A stretch of DNA of 64,000 nucleotides, taken from assembly GCF_030687145.1 (NCBI RefSeq), contig NZ_CP117460.1, positions 2,790,001 through 2,854,000 on the forward strand, written 5' to 3'. Source of the stretch: Pseudomonas sp. FP1742. Lineage in GTDB: Bacteria; Pseudomonadota; Gammaproteobacteria; Pseudomonadales; Pseudomonadaceae. The translations under genes and the position numbers were made by a program. Within the stretch, counting starts at the first letter, position 1. Every line of letters starts with the position of its first letter. This document shows, piece after piece, positions 5,181-25,612 of the stretch. The notes beneath the pieces are model-generated. The model worked only from the letters and a program-made list of their open reading frames with translations. It did not search any database and was not told the origin of the DNA.

Positions 5181-6127
5181 AAAAGCGTACGGTAGTGGCC
5201 GGCGCAGGGGCGCTGGCCGTGTTGGTAATTGCTGTTGCGCTGGGGCTGCGACCGGGCAATGACCCGGTCGCGGCCCAGCAGCCGGCGCCATCGGCAGTCT
5301 TGGCAACGAGTGCGCCGGCGGTCGCGCGCCTCGGCAATCAGCAAGTCGCCCCTGAAGAACTCAAGGCACTGCTCGCCACCTTGGCGCCGGAGTCCCGCGA
5401 ACAACTGCGGGCCAATCGCGGGGCGCTGGAGAGCTGGATTCGTTCGCGCCTGGCCGAGAAAGCCGTACTCGAACAGGCCGACGCCCAAGGCTGGCGCCAG
5501 CGTCCGGAGGTCGAACGGCAAACCCGCGCCGCGACTGAGCAGATCGTCTTTCGCGATTATTTGCAGTCGGTCAGTCAGGTACCGGCCGATTATCCCAACG
5601 CCGCCGAATTGCAGCAGGCCTATGAGGCCGGCAAGGCCGGTTGGGTGACACCGCCGATGTACCGGGTCAGCCAGATTTTCCTTGGGGTGAGCGATCCGCA
5701 AAATCTCGATGCCGTGCGCAAACAAGCTGCGGAGCTGAGCAAAAAAGCCCAGGCCGCGCCGACGGAATTCGCGGCGTTGGCGAGTCAGTATTCGCAGGAT
5801 CGAGCCAGCGCTGAGCGAGGCGGCGACACCGGCCTGCAACCGTTGCAGCAACTGGTGCCGGAAGTGCGTGGCGCGGTGGCGCGGCTGAAAGTCGGGGCCG
5901 TGTCCGAACCGGTGCAGAGCGCGGCCGGTTTCCATGTGATCAAACTCACCGAGCAGCAACCGGCCCGCACCGCGACCCTGGACGAACTGCGCGAACGCCT
6001 GACCCAGGCCTTGCGTGCCCAGCGTCAGGAACAGATCGCCAAGGCCTACCTGGAAGGCATGCTCAATACCGCGACGCTGAGTATCGACGGGGCCGAGCTC
6101 AACAAAGTGCTGGAGGAAAAACGTTAG
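5177..6127 (+). CDS. membrane-anchored PpiC-type peptidyl-prolyl cis-trans isomerase
   Basis: This 316-residue protein has an N-terminal signal anchor (VVAGAGALAVLVIAVALGL). A SurA/PrsA-like helical N-domain follows (about 50-150), then a parvulin PpiC domain at about 155-260 with typical elements YRVSQIFLGV, SQDRASAERGGDTG and SAAGFHVIKLTE. It should catalyse prolyl isomerisation of exported proteins in the periplasm. It ends the seven-gene operon and starts with GTG overlapping the preceding stop. In P. aeruginosa the equivalent cluster also ends with a PpiC-type gene (PA0699, from memory). The context suggests folding help for the porin or for a large secreted protein encoded upstream of the window. 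Confidence 0.85.
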   Translation: MKKRTVVAGAGALAVLVIAVALGLRPGNDPVAAQQPAPSAVLATSAPAVARLGNQQVAPEELKALLATLAPESREQLRANRGALESWIRSRLAEKAVLEQADAQGWRQRPEVERQTRAATEQIVFRDYLQSVSQVPADYPNAAELQQAYEAGKAGWVTPPMYRVSQIFLGVSDPQNLDAVRKQAAELSKKAQAAPTEFAALASQYSQDRASAERGGDTGLQPLQQLVPEVRGAVARLKVGAVSEPVQSAAGFHVIKLTEQQPARTATLDELRERLTQALRAQRQEQIAKAYLEGMLNTATLSIDGAELNKVLEEKR

Positions 6128-6150
6128 TTTCCCCGTTCGCAGCGATCCAG

Positions 6151-6241
6151 TGTGGGAGCGGGCTTGCTCGCGAAGAGGCCTTCACAGGCAACATTTCCAT
6201 TGAATGTGCCGACGCCTTCGCGAGCAAGCCCGCTCCCACAG
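6151..6241. repeat. REP pair (Pseudomonas REP, inverted doublet)
   Basis: Two inverted copies of TGTGGGAGCGGGCTTGCTCG(CGAAG) flank a spacer of about 40 bases. It lies between the PpiC stop and the LysR gene. The same doublet recurs at 12323, 16732, 44764 and 54076. Confidence 0.92.
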
Positions 6242-6286
6242 GGGATGTGTGGAGTACCTAAAACAAAGATCGACAGGGAGTCATCG

Positions 6287-7273
6287 ATGTCATTCATAGA
6301 ACCCACAGGACGTCAGGGTGTTGTCGAATACCGATCCTCGCGCGAGCCATCCGAATCCTGGCTGGCCCTGGCTGCCGGGATCGATGCCGAGGTGGCGCAA
6401 TATTTCATGGTCAGCGCCCGTTGCGGCTGTTTCATGCAGGCCGCGCGCAGCCTCAATGTGCGGGCAACATTGTTGCGCAAGCATCTGGCGCAGCTGGAAG
6501 ATCAGCTGCAGCGTTCACTGTTCAAGTTCCAGGGCAGTTCGCTGACCTTGAGTCGTGACGGCCAGCAGTTGCAGGCACGGTTGATCGCGCTGGTGCACGA
6601 ACGCAAGTTGCCGGTGATCGAACAGCCGTTGATTCGCCTGGCCGTAGCCGAGTCGATCCTGCACGACATCCTCGGTCGCGACCTGGTCGCGCTGCTGCGG
6701 CGCAACGCCAGTGTGCGCCTGGACATCATTTCCCTCGACAGTGAACTGTCCCTGCGGGCGATCAGCGCCGATGTGGTGGTGTGGCTGACGGGCACTGATT
6801 CGCCGCTGCCAGGCCCCAGTTTTGCCATCACCGAGCCCCAGCGTCTGGCACGGCTGGACTACCTGCCGCACATTGCCAAACGTTACTCGCGGGTCGCGGC
6901 CCGCCCGGACAGCCTGGGTGACCTGGCCGACTTCATGCTGGTGCAATGGCAGCACGACCGTCAGGTCGAGACCTTTGGGCCATGGAACCGTCTGGTGGAG
7001 CAGCGCCTGGCGGGGGTGGTGCAGTTGCATTCCTATGAGTTGATGCTGGAGATGATCCGTTGCAGCGCCTGCATCGGTTTGCTGCCGCACTACATGAGCC
7101 GATTCGATCGAGGGCTGTTGGCGTTGCCCGGGCTGTTCAACCAACCGATGCAGCGCCAGGTGTGGATGGCGGTCAATGCCGATTCCCGAAATGAGCCTGA
7201 GGTGCAGGGCATCGTCGAGCTGATCCGCAACACCTTCAATGAGCGGCGGGAGTGGTTCGAGCAGCTCGACTGA
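6287..7273 (+). CDS. LysR-type transcriptional regulator
   Basis: This 328-residue protein has a LysR-type winged helix at about residues 40-100. It shows the family pattern AARSLNVRATLLRKHLAQLE followed by LFKFQG and LTLSRDGQQL. An effector-binding Rossmann-like domain follows, ending in EVQGIVELIRNTF. The start at ATG 6287 follows CAGGGAG at 6274-6280. The frame is open further upstream through the REP, but that is not coding. A perfect hairpin lies just downstream. Target genes are unknown: the flanking genes are on the same strand but separated by repeats, so no divergent target is evident. Confidence 0.85.
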   Translation: MSFIEPTGRQGVVEYRSSREPSESWLALAAGIDAEVAQYFMVSARCGCFMQAARSLNVRATLLRKHLAQLEDQLQRSLFKFQGSSLTLSRDGQQLQARLIALVHERKLPVIEQPLIRLAVAESILHDILGRDLVALLRRNASVRLDIISLDSELSLRAISADVVVWLTGTDSPLPGPSFAITEPQRLARLDYLPHIAKRYSRVAARPDSLGDLADFMLVQWQHDRQVETFGPWNRLVEQRLAGVVQLHSYELMLEMIRCSACIGLLPHYMSRFDRGLLALPGLFNQPMQRQVWMAVNADSRNEPEVQGIVELIRNTFNERREWFEQLD

Positions 7274-19224: not shown

Positions 19225-21786
19225 ATGGCACAACAAATACATAACGATGGATCGTCAGGAAGTGTCGTCATCAGGTCGGGACCGCCCGCTTCGAGTGGTG
19301 GTTCTGGCGGTGGTTTTGGCGGTGGCGGAGGGGTTTCAGGCGGGTTCGGTAAAACCAGCAAGAACAAGCAAAAGGCCCGAAGGCGGGCCATAGAAGCGGA
19401 TCGTCAGAAAAAGCAAAAAGAGCGCGAGCAGGCCGAGGCGGCTCAAGCCCAGGCTCAGGAACAGGCCCGTGTTCAGGCCCTTCACCAGTTTCTTGCGGGG
19501 CTGGCGCAGCGTCATGACGCCATCAGAGCCGAGGTGGATCGTCGCTTTGCCGACAAGGCCGGTCAACTCGCGTCATCTCTCGAACACGAAATATCGGCTG
19601 CGCGACGGCCACCCAATAGCGACTCGAGCGAACGCTGGCAGCTTTATCTGATAACCAAGGAAAAAAACGAGATCGACGGGCTTACCACCCGTAAAACTGC
19701 CGAGCTCAATGCAAAAAACGCGGTTGCTCGGTCCTTCGATGGACACGATCCATTCGCCCGCACCTCGAACGATTACCTGACGCGACTGGGGCAGTTTGGT
19801 CAGGCACTCAATGACGGCCATCAGATATGGGAAAACGCCTATAACGCGGCCCATGAAGTCCGATTGCTGACATCGCAAATCAATGCGCTCACGGACAAAT
19901 CCAATGCGCTGGCAAGGCATCATGCCGAGCAGACAGTCGTCTGGCGCGAAAGGGAAGCCGTGTGGGAGGCCCAGCGTCAGTACGCCGAGCAGCGTGAAGC
20001 ACGGGTTCGCTTCAAGCAGCAAGCCGATGAAGATGTACGGGTTGAACGGGTCAGGCAGGCTAACACGCTGACTATTCCCGTTACCTCGGTTGCCGCTGGC
20101 GGGATGGTTTTGACGCGTGACGGCGCATTCGTGGCGCGGCAAGCGGCGGCAGTGCTTGAGGCGGCGGTACAGTCTGCCGTCAGCACCCTCATCGATTTCG
20201 GACGCATTGCCGCAAAAACGGGGCCGGTGTTCGTCACCGCGATGGTGTACTCGCCCACCCTCGGCAACAGTGAGTTGAGCGTCGAGCAACGTCGGCGTTT
20301 GTTCCAGGCTGTCGCCATTCCCGCGCAAGCGCTGGGGCTTTCCGATGGTCGAGCACTGCAATCGATTGCTGATTCCGGTGGCTCGGTGGAGGCGGCATAC
20401 CGGCTCAAACCCGAAGCCGTGTCAGAGGGCACCGCCATCATTGCTGTCGCTACCGGCGATGAGATTGATGCTGATGTGCCGGTCATCAATGCGGTACTCG
20501 ACCCGCTGACCGGGTTCTACAACGCAAAGATCCCCGGATTCCCGACCAGGCACCTTCAATTCGCGCCGGGCGCTGCCGCTCAGGCTGCCACGACGAGCCA
20601 GGCGGGGCTGGCGAAGTTGACGCCGCAGATCCAGCACATCCCGGTAGGTGTCGACCTGCGCATTCAGGACTGCATTGTTTGCGTACCAGGCTTACCACCG
20701 ACTTACCTGTCCTTCAATCAGCCACCCATGGGTTCGGGTGTCGTCACTGGGAGCGGTCAACCGGCCACGGCTGACTGGTGGAAAACGGCACGCAAGGTGA
20801 CAGGCGCCGCCATTCCGACACAGATCGGCGATCAGTTTAGAGGTCGCGAAATCAACTCGTTCGGCGCTTTTGACGAGACGCTGTGGCGAACGTTGGGCGA
20901 GCATCCGGCGCTCACGGCCCAGTTCGATGAGGTCAATAAAAAACGCATCGAACAAGGTTTTGCACCCTATGCGCCAAAAAGCACTTGGGTTGGTGAACGG
21001 CGTGAATTCGAGCTGCGTTATCAAGAGCTTGCGGAGTTGGGTGAAACCCCCTTCAACCTCGACAAAATCAGCATCACCACGCCGCAAAGCACCCACGGAC
21101 AGTTGGGGATCACCCCTGCGGTTCTGCCTTGGCCGATTAACCCCGTTGGCGTCGGAACCTGGACACCTCTCGTTCCGCCGGGTATCGAACACCTCGATCC
21201 TACAACCTCACCGGTTACACCGTCGATTCCAGCGGTTTATCCCGGCACCCCGGTCATCCCGGTCCTACCGCAAAACGAGACCTTTCCGGCTGTTGACGAA
21301 GGGCAGATCGGTGCCAGTATTCCTGGGTATCCGGCGGATATGGAGTTGCCCTCGTCGGATGTGTTGTTTCTGGATCGGCGGGATGATCCGGGGGTTGCTA
21401 CGGGGGTTGGGCAGACGGTTACAGGGATTTGGTTGGGGGAGGCTGCAAGAGCAGAGGGTGCGGCGGTTCCTGTCCAGATTGCGGATCAGCTAAGGGGGAG
21501 GGAGTTTGCCAATTTTCATCGGTTCAGGCGGGCGTTTTGGAGGACTGTTGCGGCGGATACGACATTGAATCACCAGTTTAGTGCTCACAATTTGAACAGA
21601 ATGCGCGAGGGGCTCTCTCCGTACCCGCCGTTAGCTGACCAAAGCGGCGGACGCAAAACGTTCGAACTTCATCATGATGTTGAAGTTTCAAAAGGTGGGG
21701 AGGTCTACGGCTTGGACAACATATCGGTAATGACTCCAAAACGTCATATTCAACTGCACAAAGGGAATGGCAATCATGATTTTTAA
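19225..21786 (+). CDS. S-type pyocin-like nuclease bacteriocin with two tandem HNH domains
   Basis: This 853-residue colicin-like bacteriocin has a Gly-rich disordered N-terminus (about 15-42), a basic/Gln-Ala coiled-coil receptor region (about 45-275), a Pyocin_S-type translocation domain (about 280-495) and a first colicin-E-type nuclease fold (about 503-628). A Pro-rich linker follows (about 630-715), then a second, complete HNH nuclease (about 722-850). The second copy has FELHHDVEVSKGGEVYGLDN and TPKRHIQLHK, that is catalytic His 816, 817, 841 and 845. In the first copy the aligned positions read FELRYQE and TPQSTHGQLG, so the metal/catalytic His are missing. The second domain should cleave target-cell DNA after import. 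The immunity gene overlaps the 3' end by 11 bases. Confidence 0.9.
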   Translation: MAQQIHNDGSSGSVVIRSGPPASSGGSGGGFGGGGGVSGGFGKTSKNKQKARRRAIEADRQKKQKEREQAEAAQAQAQEQARVQALHQFLAGLAQRHDAIRAEVDRRFADKAGQLASSLEHEISAARRPPNSDSSERWQLYLITKEKNEIDGLTTRKTAELNAKNAVARSFDGHDPFARTSNDYLTRLGQFGQALNDGHQIWENAYNAAHEVRLLTSQINALTDKSNALARHHAEQTVVWREREAVWEAQRQYAEQREARVRFKQQADEDVRVERVRQANTLTIPVTSVAAGGMVLTRDGAFVARQAAAVLEAAVQSAVSTLIDFGRIAAKTGPVFVTAMVYSPTLGNSELSVEQRRRLFQAVAIPAQALGLSDGRALQSIADSGGSVEAAYRLKPEAVSEGTAIIAVATGDEIDADVPVINAVLDPLTGFYNAKIPGFPTRHLQFAPGAAAQAATTSQAGLAKLTPQIQHIPVGVDLRIQDCIVCVPGLPPTYLSFNQPPMGSGVVTGSGQPATADWWKTARKVTGAAIPTQIGDQFRGREINSFGAFDETLWRTLGEHPALTAQFDEVNKKRIEQGFAPYAPKSTWVGERREFELRYQELAELGETPFNLDKISITTPQSTHGQLGITPAVLPWPINPVGVGTWTPLVPPGIEHLDPTTSPVTPSIPAVYPGTPVIPVLPQNETFPAVDEGQIGASIPGYPADMELPSSDVLFLDRRDDPGVATGVGQTVTGIWLGEAARAEGAAVPVQIADQLRGREFANFHRFRRAFWRTVAADTTLNHQFSAHNLNRMREGLSPYPPLADQSGGRKTFELHHDVEVSKGGEVYGLDNISVMTPKRHIQLHKGNGNHDF

Positions 21787-22051
21787 AGAGAGGCTGGAGG
21801 ACTACACAGAAGCGGAGTTTTTATCTTTTTTGGAGGAGTTTTCCAATCAATCAAGTGGTTTGAAAGGGCAGGCGTTGGAGGATTACAGGGACAGACTCCT
21901 CACGCATTTTGAACGTGTCACTGAGCATCCAGGCCGTTCAGACGTCATCTTCTACCCCAAAGAAGGCCAGGAAGACAGTCCTGAGGGCATCCTGAAAGAA
22001 GTCAAAGAATGGCGTGCACGTAATAACAAGCCCGGCTTCAAACCAGAGTAA
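21776..22051 (+). CDS. colicin-E/pyocin-type immunity protein
   Basis: This 91-residue acidic protein is of the Im7/Im9 (Colicin_Pyocin) family. Evidence is DYTEAEFLSFLEEF at helix 1 and the hallmark loop HPGRSDVIFYP; the tail EVKEWRARNNKPGFK is also typical. ATG 21776 is preferred over ATG 21767 because AAGGGA lies 9 bases upstream. The gene overlaps the last codons of the bacteriocin, as usual for bacteriocin-immunity pairs, so it most likely neutralises the C-terminal nuclease. It is visibly poorer in GC and uses more T/A-ending codons than the housekeeping genes nearby. Confidence 0.9.
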   Translation: MIFKERLEDYTEAEFLSFLEEFSNQSSGLKGQALEDYRDRLLTHFERVTEHPGRSDVIFYPKEGQEDSPEGILKEVKEWRARNNKPGFKPE

Positions 22052-22083
22052 CTGCACTGATCTAAACGCAAACAATTCACACG

Positions 22084-22111
22084 CATCTGCTCATCACAAT
22101 ATGAGCAGATG
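22084..22111. repeat. 11-bp inverted repeat between immunity and Im-pyocin genes
   Basis: CATCTGCTCAT, loop CACAAT, ATGAGCAGATG: a perfect 11-bp stem without a T-run, so not a classical terminator. It lies in the 105-base gap between the immunity gene and the Im-pyocin fusion, about 45 bases before the fusion start. It could be an attenuating hairpin or an operator. Confidence 0.6.
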
Positions 22112-22156
22112 TCGTTACCTGGGCAGTTGTGCGCCAGAAACAAGGAAGCAATAAAG

Positions 22157-23725
22157 ATGGAACTAAAAACAACACTCAAGTATTACACCGAACCGGAATT
22201 CCAGGCTCTGGTCGACAGGATCTGGGCTGTCGATTTACCGAAAACGGACCACGATCAATTGATCAATCATTTCGACCGCATCGCCGGTCACCCCAAAGGT
22301 GCGGACCTGCTGTTTTATCCGCCAGAGGCTAGCTACAACGCCTACTCATCCGGCTCGGTCGTGTATTACGTCAAAGGCTGGCACCACAAACAGGGCAGTG
22401 CTGCGTTCAAGGGGGAAAGTATTCCCGTCCCCAAACCTGTTGCGACAGGGCCCAAAGCGCCGTTGACCCTGGCGCAGATGACGCAGCGGCGTATTGCACA
22501 CAACCTGGCTGACGTACAAAAAGTCGCTGTAGATCTGACGGTCTCCGAGCGAGCGGCAGAAGCGGCACTTACTGTGTTCGAGCAACGAATAAAGCACCTG
22601 CGTCAACGACAGAGCGCACACGTGGACATCCGTGAGCGTGAAGCGGACATCCGTGCCCTGGAGGCTTCTGAACTTGAAGCGCGTCTGGCAGCCCACCGGT
22701 ACGAATTCTGGAAAATGCGCATCGAGTTCAAACGAGACAGCGCCCACCGTGAACTGCCCTACGCCGGATCCGAACACGCGCAGTGGCAGAGCATCGCCCA
22801 GCAGATCAACGCCACTTACGACCGTTATCTGACGAAATTGAATGAGATCAATCAACGCCTCCGCGGCTTTCAAGTGGACGCTGAAACGTTGCTGGTGACG
22901 GCGCAAACACAACTCGTCGATCAGCGTTATCAGCAGGGAACAGGGCCGACTCAGACGTCCGGGCTGCTTTTTGCACCGCTCGCCTTTGCCAATGCGCGAC
23001 CGGGTATTTTCCTCGATGGCGGCCTTTCGCAACCCTTGGAGACCCATCGGGTTGCGCTGCAAAAAGCCATGCGTTCGGCGGTGGCGGAGTTTACCTGGCA
23101 GATCACCTCGGGAACCGATGAGCATCAAGGTCAATACGCAGCCGTTCTGCAATTCGATTTTTCCAGTCGGGCCGAAGTGGGGAAGTATGGGATCAGCGTT
23201 CCTCTGTCCGAGTTGCTTCCGACCGAGGGCCAGGATTGGCAAAGCCTGGCTGCGTCTGGCGCTGAGGTCGATCTTCCGTTCCGGTTGAGCAGCGGTATGT
23301 ACACTGTTGCGCCAGGAACGATGTCTCGAGGTCTGAGAGAAATAAAGACATTGTGCCAGGTGGCTCTCACGCCCACTAATGGCAGCACGTTGTCGCCCGG
23401 AGTAAGGGTACGGGCCGCCGTCTGGAGCGAGCCGCTGAAGACCTACTGTTTCACCGCTGACGGGCCAGTCCCGGAGACCGTGAGCTGGAGCGCTCCGGCT
23501 CCCTTTGCAAGCACGTCGACCCTGGCGCCGGCCGCCGAGTATCGGCTGGGGTTCCTGCGGTCTTCGCCTGTGCCCTTGCTTGAGTCCTTCAGCGACATGG
23601 CGGCGATTCGTTTCGATGACTATATCGTCGTCTTCCCGCCTGCGTCTGGCCTGGACCCGCTTTACCTCATGTTCAGAGACCGGCGCGAATATCCCGAAAT
23701 GACCATGGGTCAAGCAAAACCCTAG
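22157..23725 (+). CDS. Im immunity domain fused to pyocin receptor/translocation module, no nuclease
   Basis: The product is 522 residues. Residues 1-86 form a complete Im7/Im9-like domain (YYTEPEFQALVDRIW, HFDRIAGHPKGADLLFYPP, YVKGWHHKQGSAAFK). Residues about 105-255 are a charged coiled coil (RRIAHNLADVQK, REREADIRALEASELEARL). Residues about 268-508 match the pyocin translocation region (GIFLDGGLSQPLETHRVALQ, YRLGFLRSSPVPLLESFSD, FDDYIVVFPPASGLDPLYLM). The protein then stops a dozen residues after FRDRREYP, where related bacteriocins continue into the nuclease. ATG 22157 has AAGGAAG upstream. It may be an immunity protein with an acquired delivery module, or a decayed bacteriocin; I cannot decide. 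Confidence 0.82.
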   Translation: MELKTTLKYYTEPEFQALVDRIWAVDLPKTDHDQLINHFDRIAGHPKGADLLFYPPEASYNAYSSGSVVYYVKGWHHKQGSAAFKGESIPVPKPVATGPKAPLTLAQMTQRRIAHNLADVQKVAVDLTVSERAAEAALTVFEQRIKHLRQRQSAHVDIREREADIRALEASELEARLAAHRYEFWKMRIEFKRDSAHRELPYAGSEHAQWQSIAQQINATYDRYLTKLNEINQRLRGFQVDAETLLVTAQTQLVDQRYQQGTGPTQTSGLLFAPLAFANARPGIFLDGGLSQPLETHRVALQKAMRSAVAEFTWQITSGTDEHQGQYAAVLQFDFSSRAEVGKYGISVPLSELLPTEGQDWQSLAASGAEVDLPFRLSSGMYTVAPGTMSRGLREIKTLCQVALTPTNGSTLSPGVRVRAAVWSEPLKTYCFTADGPVPETVSWSAPAPFASTSTLAPAAEYRLGFLRSSPVPLLESFSDMAAIRFDDYIVVFPPASGLDPLYLMFRDRREYPEMTMGQAKP

Positions 23726-23788: not shown

Positions 23789-24232
23789 ATGCCTGTTCTG
23801 GAACTTACCACCCTGATCCCCAACCGCACGCCCGAGCTGGTCCTCGAGTTTTGCCTGGAAGGTCTCAACGCTCCGAAGATCTTTGTGGAGCGAGTCACAC
23901 TGTTGAGCGACGTCGACCTAAGTAATCTGCGCATCGAAGCCGGCCATCAATTCCACTTTCGGCACTGGATGTTTAACGTCATACCTTTGAGTTGGACGGT
24001 GGTGATCCGTGAGGTTGGCCATCACCATTTCATCGATGAAATGCTTGAAGGCCCGATGGCTGTCTTTCGTCATGAGCATCGGGTCGAGGCAGCAGACGGC
24101 GGTACGCTTTACACCGACCTGGTCACTTACAAGGCGATTGGCGGCGCACCTGTGGAGTGGTTGCTGGTTAATGGCTACCTGCGCAGAATTTTTTCGGCGC
24201 GCCACCGCAATATGTTGCGCTTGCTCGGTTAA
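23789..24232 (+). CDS. SRPBCC-family (START/Bet v 1-like) ligand-binding protein
   Basis: This 147-residue soluble protein has the helix-grip pattern of SRPBCC/polyketide-cyclase-like proteins: MPVLELTTLI, FHFRHWMFNVIPLSWTVVIR, FIDEMLEGPMAVFRHEHR and TLYTDLVTYKA. An AAGGAATG ribosome site lies upstream of ATG 23789. It follows the Im-pyocin gene by 63 bases on the same strand but has ordinary Pseudomonas composition, so it is likely the chromosomal flank of the bacteriocin island. Ligand unknown. Confidence 0.8.
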   Translation: MPVLELTTLIPNRTPELVLEFCLEGLNAPKIFVERVTLLSDVDLSNLRIEAGHQFHFRHWMFNVIPLSWTVVIREVGHHHFIDEMLEGPMAVFRHEHRVEAADGGTLYTDLVTYKAIGGAPVEWLLVNGYLRRIFSARHRNMLRLLG

Positions 24233-24786: not shown

Positions 24787-25111
24787 GGTCTTGTCTCCGC
24801 TGGTTTTGAGTGACTCACTGTCTAGTCGAATGGCCATGCGCTAAATCGACAGCGCGGCCAAAGAAAGATCGCCGCAAACCTTCTGATACCCCCAGCAGGC
24901 GTTGCCCATGGCTGTGATCTCTTTCTATTGACCTCTTGGGGGACGCTGAAGATCAATAAATCGAAGCCTTCGCGCGATAGGTTGCAGTTGCCGGGCTGGT
25001 CTCTCTCGGGCTCATGACAATTTGTGTTTTTGCATAGGTCGTCAGTCAATTTCGTGGTTAACTTCGACCTCGTCAAAATTCTCCACATCAACGTTCAGAA
25101 GGACTCCGTTC
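24787..25111. other. intergenic region upstream of tpx
   Basis: This 325-base gap between divergent YCII and tpx genes should carry both promoters. No repeat or ORF of coding quality was seen. The ribosome site AGAAGGA is at 25097-25103. Confidence 0.4.
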
Positions 25112-25612
25112 ATGGCTCAAGTCACTCTTAAAGGCAACCCGGTTCAAGTCAACGGCCAATTGCCACAAGCCGGTTCCCAGGCGCCAGCCTTTTCCCTGGT
25201 CGCCGGCAATCTGTCCGACGTGACCCTGGCGAGCTTCGCCGGCAAGCGCAAAGTGCTGAACATCTTCCCAAGCATCGACACCCCGACCTGCGCCACCTCG
25301 GTGCGCAAGTTCAACGCCCAGGCCAATGACGTGGCCAACACCGTGGTGCTGTGCATCTCCGCCGACCTGCCGTTCGCTCAAGCCCGCTTCTGCGGCGCCG
25401 AAGGCCTGGAAAACGTGCAGAACCTGTCGACCCTGCGCGGTGCCGAGTTCAAGGAAAACTACGGCGTAGCCATTGCCGATGGTCCACTCAAAGGCCTGAC
25501 CGCCCGTGCCGTTGTGGTTCTGGACGAAAACGACAAGGTCCTGCATAGCGAACTGGTCAAGGAAATCGCTGAAGAACCGAACTACGACGCAGCGCTCGCC
25601 GTTCTGAAGTAA
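25112..25612 (+). CDS. tpx: thiol peroxidase Tpx
   Basis: This 166-residue atypical 2-Cys peroxiredoxin reduces H2O2 and alkyl hydroperoxides using thioredoxin. The peroxidatic Cys lies in [15 protein letters not shown] (about residue 60) and the resolving Cys in [13 protein letters not shown] (about 94), with the Tpx signature Q-N-L-S-T-L-R following. Length matches E. coli Tpx. The start ATG 25112 has AGAAGGA upstream; the frame is open further 5' but without a ribosome site. It is monocistronic and ends at a clear intrinsic terminator. Confidence 0.95.

Follow-up and report, generated by a model that had tools for sequence, protein, structure and literature searches.

The colicin DNase-Im pair is the textbook model of fast-diversifying and ultra-specific protein binding. 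In the known Im/DNase pairs, as outlined in PMC4548480, diversity at the interface far exceeds that elsewhere in the domains, and helix III of the Im protein is described as conserved (PMC3576412). For the uptake of such toxins, pyocin G has been reported to depend on its Pyocin_S domain for transport across the inner membrane (PMC9040868), and the DPY motif, D-X4-FP-X8-Y, is reported by Sharp et al. for all nuclease bacteriocins that they examined, with the Tyr being needed for killing by colicin E9 and being the only motif residue essential there (PMC5536347). Sharp et al. 2017 also relate, with reference to Ghequire and De Mot 2014, that some Pseudomonas bacteriocins have tandem pyocin_S domains and an additional DNase without a functional HNH; the text that they devote to these bacteriocins mentions neither a partner gene nor a docking role (PMC5536347). 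Finally, the legend to Fig. 1D of Atanaskovic et al. 2022 has Colicin_Pyocin among the domains found in inner-membrane translocation (IMT) proteins, so that proteins of the type described here were probably counted there; this legend entry is accompanied by no locus, partner or function in section 5 of that paper (PMC9040868). Searches of the open-licence literature by title and abstract and by terms returned no prior description of such a protein or of a two-chain nuclease bacteriocin.

In the window, i.e. the stretch of 64,000 nucleotides from Pseudomonas sp. FP1742 that was analysed as a whole, three genes form a set: A, which codes for a bacteriocin, a stand-alone immunity gene, and B as the third gene (Table 1). 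The frame of B is intact from the ATG at 22157 to the TAG at 23725 and is preceded by an SD-like AAGGA at 22142-22146, as the earlier note on this DNA had claimed; the longest frame opens at 22109, and relatives align with the start at 22157 (MELK). Pfam matches Colicin_Pyocin to residues 4-85 (55.1 bits, cutoff 21.2) and Pyocin_S to residues 362-505 (57.7 bits, cutoff 22.5) of B, and finds no nuclease domain in B and no nuclease match in the next listed ORF 3' of it on the same strand (23789-24232). The AlphaFold2 model of B (34 family sequences, mean pLDDT 84.9, pTM 0.69) consists of four Im helices (12-23, 29-43, 50-53 and 65-78), further helices spanning 105-259 and a beta-rich module that is ordered to approximately residue 506 and followed by a low-confidence tail, so that the stop coincides with the end of a domain. 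In Foldseek searches, the first part of B matches Im9 with a TM by target of 0.85 (1emv) and 0.87 (1bxi), and the last part matches the colicin translocation domains 7nst, 5znm and 5ew5 with E values of 6e-6 to 9e-5 at a low TM by target of 0.27-0.41. In total, ORF, Pfam, AlphaFold2 and Foldseek bear out the description of B as a 522-aa fusion of an Im7/Im9-like domain and a Pyocin_S region without a nuclease. B starts directly with the Im fold and, in sequence as well as in the model, is without a Gly-rich N-terminal segment of A's type. Homology between the helical arm of B and the coil of A was considered and rejected, as a profile comparison aligned the two only from approximately profile column 260 onward.

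Table 1. Features of the A/B locus, in positions of the window
Feature	Position	Strand	Basis
Gene A, partner bacteriocin, 853 aa	19225..21786	+	ORF, Pfam, relatives
Pyocin_S domain of A, non-canonical DPY (F replaced, loop 3 residues shorter)	20356..20709	+	Pfam, motif check
Dead (pseudo-) DNase of A, proposed docking site for the Im domain of B	about 20755..21129	+	alignments
True DNase of A, colicin-type, with the HNH histidines	21391..21762	+	Pfam, alignment
Stand-alone immunity protein of 94 aa, presumably the cognate of the true DNase	21767..22051	+	Pfam Colicin_Pyocin, 116 bits
Hairpin ahead of B, following the stand-alone Im gene; stem of 12 bp, no U run	22083..22112	+	folding, alignment A4
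Gene B, 522 aa: Im domain, helical arm and Pyocin_S (IMT) domain; without a nuclease	22157..23725	+	ORF, Pfam, AlphaFold2, Foldseek
Im7/Im9-like domain of B, proposed docking domain (residues 1-88)	22157..22420	+	Pfam, alignment, Foldseek
Helical arm of B (residues 105-259)	22469..22933	+	AlphaFold2 model
Pyocin_S/IMT domain of B (residues 362-505)	23240..23671	+	Pfam; Foldseek to colicin translocation domains
Canonical DPY motif of B, D-X4-FP-X8-Y (residues 488-503)	23618..23665	+	motif as defined in PMC5536347

Alignment of five B members to a one-genome-per-species collection gave 38 loci, all of them in Pseudomonas except one in Pantoea. From these, two loci with an ordinary bacteriocin plus Im (L067 and L068), two fragments (L061 and L065) and L034, whose Im domain is broken, were dropped, and the window, L002 and L003 were added, giving 36 loci with B; one identical Im domain (L031) was merged, leaving 35 Im domains, and 34 of the 36 proteins make up alignment A3 (L042 and L050 were left out). 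Odd members are L042, which stops early, L050, the end of which is altered, and L066, in which a short B of 332 aa (6001-6996) has no helical arm and the Im domain leads directly into Pyocin_S; the A partner of this short B also has a dead DNase. Among 398 Pseudomonas genomes, 45 match B at E <= 1e-40, 39 of them over the full length, and in a class-wide sample of 369 genomes of Gammaproteobacteria the window's own genome is the only one with a match; because only the three best candidates per genome were scored in the former sample and four at most in the latter, extra copies may be missed. Judged by their lengths, two contigs occur both among the loci and among the 398 genomes (L053 = G026 and L059 = G025). 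No record among 72,556 plasmids covers 80% of B, and the best plasmid match is annotated as an S-type pyocin with a separate immunity gene. In a tree with 24 other Im sequences, the 35 fused Im domains cluster together to the exclusion of the rest (support 98/81), and 96% of 200 bootstrap trees contain this cluster.

The earlier note held that B stops at the junction where related bacteriocins continue into the nuclease, and argued against simple decay. Both points stand, and neither of the refuting outcomes named in that note, homologues that all run on into a nuclease or a dN/dS near 1, was seen. None of the 36 proteins has a complete HNH. Five retain a truncated dead DNase after the junction, which ends just past VYDxDN and before the last two HNH histidines, and 29 of the other 31 end 2-23 residues past the position of F506, the two exceptions being L042, which is broken earlier, and L050, the end of which is shifted. 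RDRREL or RDRREV is found at the stop junction in eight loci, and in L062, one of the 29, a DNase-like piece lies 3' of B in another frame. The lack of any complete HNH together with the many stops at or near the junction suggests that the nuclease was lost and stayed lost. The dN/dS of the whole gene is 0.14-0.48 in the 16 pairs tested, mostly near 0.2 (0.21-0.24 for B of the window versus L031-L033), and that of the Im domain is 0-0.33 in the 14 pairs where it was computable; the helical arm has higher values of 0.82 (L031/L033) and 0.99 (L043/L042, the latter being broken). On the basis of the sequence comparisons, the B family is under purifying selection, and we reject decay or a nonsense allele as an explanation for B. 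Frames are broken in A or B of L033, L034, L041, L042 and L062, suggesting that parts of the A/B system have been lost in places. One detail of the comparison made in the earlier note can be refined: FLDRRDDPG in A, to which the end of B had been likened, is the second junction of A and is preceded by an inactive DNase-like domain. This dead DNase inside the adjacent bacteriocin is the partner that was overlooked.

A is laid out as a Gly-rich N-terminus, long helices, a Pyocin_S domain with an altered DPY motif, the dead DNase, a linker and the true DNase, with Pfam Col-Pyo_DNase matching two stretches; an AlphaFold2 model of residues 1-635 (9 sequences) was poor, with a mean pLDDT of 58, and too weak for use. 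Among 35 dead DNases, H102 is replaced by R in 33 and by L and G in the remaining two, H103 is kept in nine, and no domain retains H127 or H131, whereas all four HNH histidines are kept in 17 of 17 true DNases. Judged by these losses, the inner DNase of A is catalytically dead. The 35 sequences exclude L057, in which the dead DNase is fragmentary, and L062, in which none was found in A, and L034, which is outside the set of 36, contributes one dead and one true DNase. The bacteriocins with tandem pyocin_S domains in PMC5536347 very probably are, from their description there, gene A of the A/B pair.

A and B occur together. A was searched for in the 398 Pseudomonas genomes with an alignment that extends through the dead DNase, and the scores split cleanly into 35 full-length matches (823-1061 bits), three fragments (355-564 bits) and other matches of at most 323 bits. 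With three candidates scored in each of the 398 genomes, a full-length B was found on the same contig and strand in 35 of the 35 genomes with a full-length A, and in all 35 pairs the start of B lies no more than about 2.8 kb downstream of the dead DNase; for four of the 39 full-length B (in G133, G266, G332 and G176) no full-length A was found. The toxin in the locus varies: of the 36 loci, 16 code for a colicin-type true DNase, 19 are without one and have an immunity gene that is DUF6392-like, as called by blastp to three proteins of which two match Pfam DUF6392, and one has neither. For three of the 19 DUF6392-type loci, Pfam had no match to the C-terminal toxin. A stand-alone Im gene is present in all 16 loci with a colicin-type true DNase, and B does not differ in kind between the colicin-DNase and the DUF6392-type loci. 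The constant partner of B across the loci is the dead DNase of A. Extra stand-alone Im genes lie in L038 (5953-6270 and 6267-6542), L046 (5971-6276) and L047 (5452-5769 and 5995-6276); those in L038 and L046 adjoin toxins of the DUF6392-immunity type, and the extra genes may remain from toxins that occupied the swap site earlier.

The Im/DNase interface was compared with the rest of each domain by mean column entropy in bits, using single-residue lists that we take to represent the Im9/E9 interface. In the stand-alone Im proteins (21 sequences) the interface is more variable than the rest (1.29 versus 0.75 bits), as is the exosite of the true DNases (17 sequences; 1.59 versus 0.82 bits). In B and in the dead DNases the pattern is reversed: the interface of B's Im domain (35 sequences) has 0.85 versus 1.49 bits, and the exosite of the dead DNases (35 sequences) 0.70 versus 1.27 bits. 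Shuffling of position labels in the full sets gave p values of 0.008 and 0.006 for the conserved faces and of 0.014 and 0.006 for the variable faces, and the contrasts between conserved and variable faces were reached in 0 of 20,000 shuffles each. The reversal is seen within the same loci, i.e. in the 17 loci with both DNases (dead exosite 0.15 versus 0.75, true exosite 1.59 versus 0.82 bits) and in the 17 loci with both kinds of Im (B's interface 0.28 versus 1.02, stand-alone Im 1.21 versus 0.74 bits), as well as with the published exosite 72-98 (dead DNase 0.27 versus 0.88, true DNase 1.37 versus 0.77), and it holds in all four sets when representatives of <80% identity are used (29 fused Im, 27 dead DNases, 11 stand-alone Im and 14 true DNases). 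The coarse Im stretch 30-56 is likewise conserved in B (0.85 versus 1.62), with little excess variability in the stand-alone Im proteins (0.92 versus 0.82).

Distances at the two conserved faces, that of B's Im domain and that of the dead DNase, correlate across 31 loci (r 0.85), and a partial r of 0.60 remains once the other parts of the two domains are controlled for (reached in 0 of 2000 permutations). L003 and L050 were left out of this comparison, as their dead DNases are partial; linkage in one operon inflates this co-variation as well as the co-occurrence of A and B. B keeps the published determinants of binding of Im proteins (D51 in 35 of 35, F54 in 34 and Y55 in 35) and adds private residues (in Im9 numbering, W23 in 33 of 35 and H33 in 34 of 35); in B numbering, the conserved residues of the domain are W23, H32-D33, D50 and F53-Y54. 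On the other side, the dead DNases keep the published exosite determinants N75, G82 and P85 (35 of 35 each) and A84 (27 of 35), and have R78 and W92 as private residues (35 of 35 each, versus 9 of 17 and 0 of 17 in the true DNases). Among the interface substitutions some are unusual; at E9 position R54, for example, 29 of the 35 dead DNases have D or E. The DNase remnants of B itself (six domains, one in another frame) have a variable exosite (1.82 versus 1.06 bits); we thus rejected docking of the Im domain on B's own dead DNase, which looks vestigial.

Compared with the DNase immunity proteins (Im2, Im7, Im8, Im9, ImS2 and ImAP41; Colicin_Pyocin), B shares the fold and the helix III hotspot (D51, the aromatic residue at 54 and Y55) but differs in that its Im domain is fused to a translocation domain, in that its interface is conserved instead of hypervariable, and in that it occurs with toxins outside its DNase family. 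Only 16 of 36 loci pair B with an active colicin-type DNase, and from toxin type and interface pattern we reject for most loci that the Im domain is the antidote for the operon's toxin. With the S-type pyocins and nuclease colicins (pyocin G, colicin E9), B shares the Pyocin_S domain with the DPY motif but has neither a nuclease nor an N-terminal region resembling that of A. The Pyocin_S end of B also gives a short and weak match (18.6 bits) to the VPA1263-type T6SS DNase effectors (NF047924), far below the cut-off of 900, and B is without the nuclease of these effectors.

Combining the pairing of A and B with the interface data, we suggest as the probable explanation that A and B are the two subunits of one nuclease bacteriocin in which B docks on the dead DNase of A and most likely aids toxin translocation. 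In this model, (i) the Im domain of B would no longer neutralise a toxin but bind the immunity-protein exosite of the dead DNase inside A, in which case an old toxin/antidote pair now serves as a docking joint, (ii) B would bring a second Pyocin_S domain for inner-membrane translocation with the canonical DPY motif that is mostly lost in the copy of A, and (iii) B would most likely help to carry the toxin of A across the inner membrane of the target. As such a joint is independent of the C-terminal toxin of A, toxins and their true immunity genes could be swapped without loss of B. The strength of these elements differs. Judging from conservation and co-variation, we have considerable confidence in docking of the Im domain on the dead DNase, although the conserved faces could instead contact other domains of the same chain; given docking, the chance that B is a delivery subunit is somewhat over half. 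The most specific version, in which A provides recognition and the swappable toxin, B provides inner-membrane translocation in trans, and the dead nuclease and the immunity fold are repurposed as the joint, falls just short of an even chance.

We hypothesize translocation in trans because the DPY motif is canonical in B and mostly altered in A. The exact motif is present in 32 of 36 B proteins (it is absent in L037, L047, L050 and L042) and in only two of the 34 A proteins in which the region is covered (L053 and L066); the other 32 have lost the F and three loop residues and keep the D and the Y. In L053 and L066, A keeps the whole canonical motif and B is still present. As A keeps the Tyr that is essential in colicin E9, it may still translocate unaided, and the difference between the two motif copies is suggestive only as a basis for translocation in trans.

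The docking evidence, i.e. the lost histidines, the reversed interface and the co-variation, also fits a B that remains in the producer and serves the whole family as a second immunity or escort protein: by holding on to the constant dead DNase, it would neutralise any A-type bacteriocin, or block its import, irrespective of the toxin carried. A partner face that is constant while the toxins vary agrees with such a function, as does the overlap of the start of B with the end of the immunity gene in three loci. We nevertheless consider it unlikely, since binding to the dead domain would leave the active site of the true toxin uncovered and the Pyocin_S domain and the DPY motif would be left without an obvious use. 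Similarly, a chaperone-like B that is a partner of A in folding, stability or release and has no role inside target cells would account equally well for the pairing with A and for the docking face, but the retention of a full translocation domain, with DPY kept in 32 of 36 proteins, is left unexplained and makes this quite improbable.

Two further readings go back to the earlier note. The fusion of an immunity fold to a translocation domain could suggest a free immunity protein that is imported by kin or shared with them as a receptor blocker; this idea found no support and is very improbable, as B is without a Gly-rich N-terminal region of A's type, its Im face is conserved and not matched to the variable toxins, and no colicin-type true DNase was found as a target in 19 of 36 loci. 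That B is a functionless remnant of a three-part fusion could be argued from the truncated dead DNase in 5 of 36 proteins, from which the ancestor probably had more, and from the few broken copies (L034 and L042, the altered end of L050, and the fragments L061 and L065). The low dN/dS of the whole gene and of the Im domain, the retention of B beside every full-length A found and a conserved Im face that is unexpected for a leftover disfavour this reading, to which we give hardly any credence.

Several observations concern the expression and genomic setting of the A/B cassette. The hairpin listed in Table 1 stands 44-74 nt upstream of B. From 24 folded gaps, 13 loci chosen by eye for a similar gap were aligned for this hairpin (alignment A4), giving 11 predicted consensus pairs of which three are changed on both sides; among the other 11 gaps, L053 and L066 have a strong hairpin of different sequence and the rest have no matchable one. 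The hairpin could set the A:B ratio. In L055, L060 and L063, the last 11 nt of the immunity gene are shared with the start of B. A loose LexA-like pattern (SOS control) had no match in the DNA before A in the window and matched before A in 5 of 24 loci at scattered distances. In L052, L054-L057, L059, L060, L063 and L064, an ORF of 328-332 aa lies 3' of B, which we take to code for a phosphate-binding PstS-like protein; this shared neighbour suggests that in that group the cassette stays at a single chromosomal site. The window has an ORF at 25022-25612 that is presumably thiol-peroxidase-like, and such an ORF, on the same assumption, is near the cassette in L035, L042 and L045; this neighbourhood is perhaps a second conserved site.

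If A and B are the two subunits of one bacteriocin, nuclease bacteriocins can be multi-subunit, the inactive DNase inside these Pseudomonas bacteriocins has a purpose, and the role of the Pyocin_S/DPY module becomes testable on a separate chain. The joint between A and B also suggests how toxins can be swapped without loss of an accessory subunit. In this locus, a DNase-Im pair has apparently become fixed as a structural joint, the dead enzyme being the socket.
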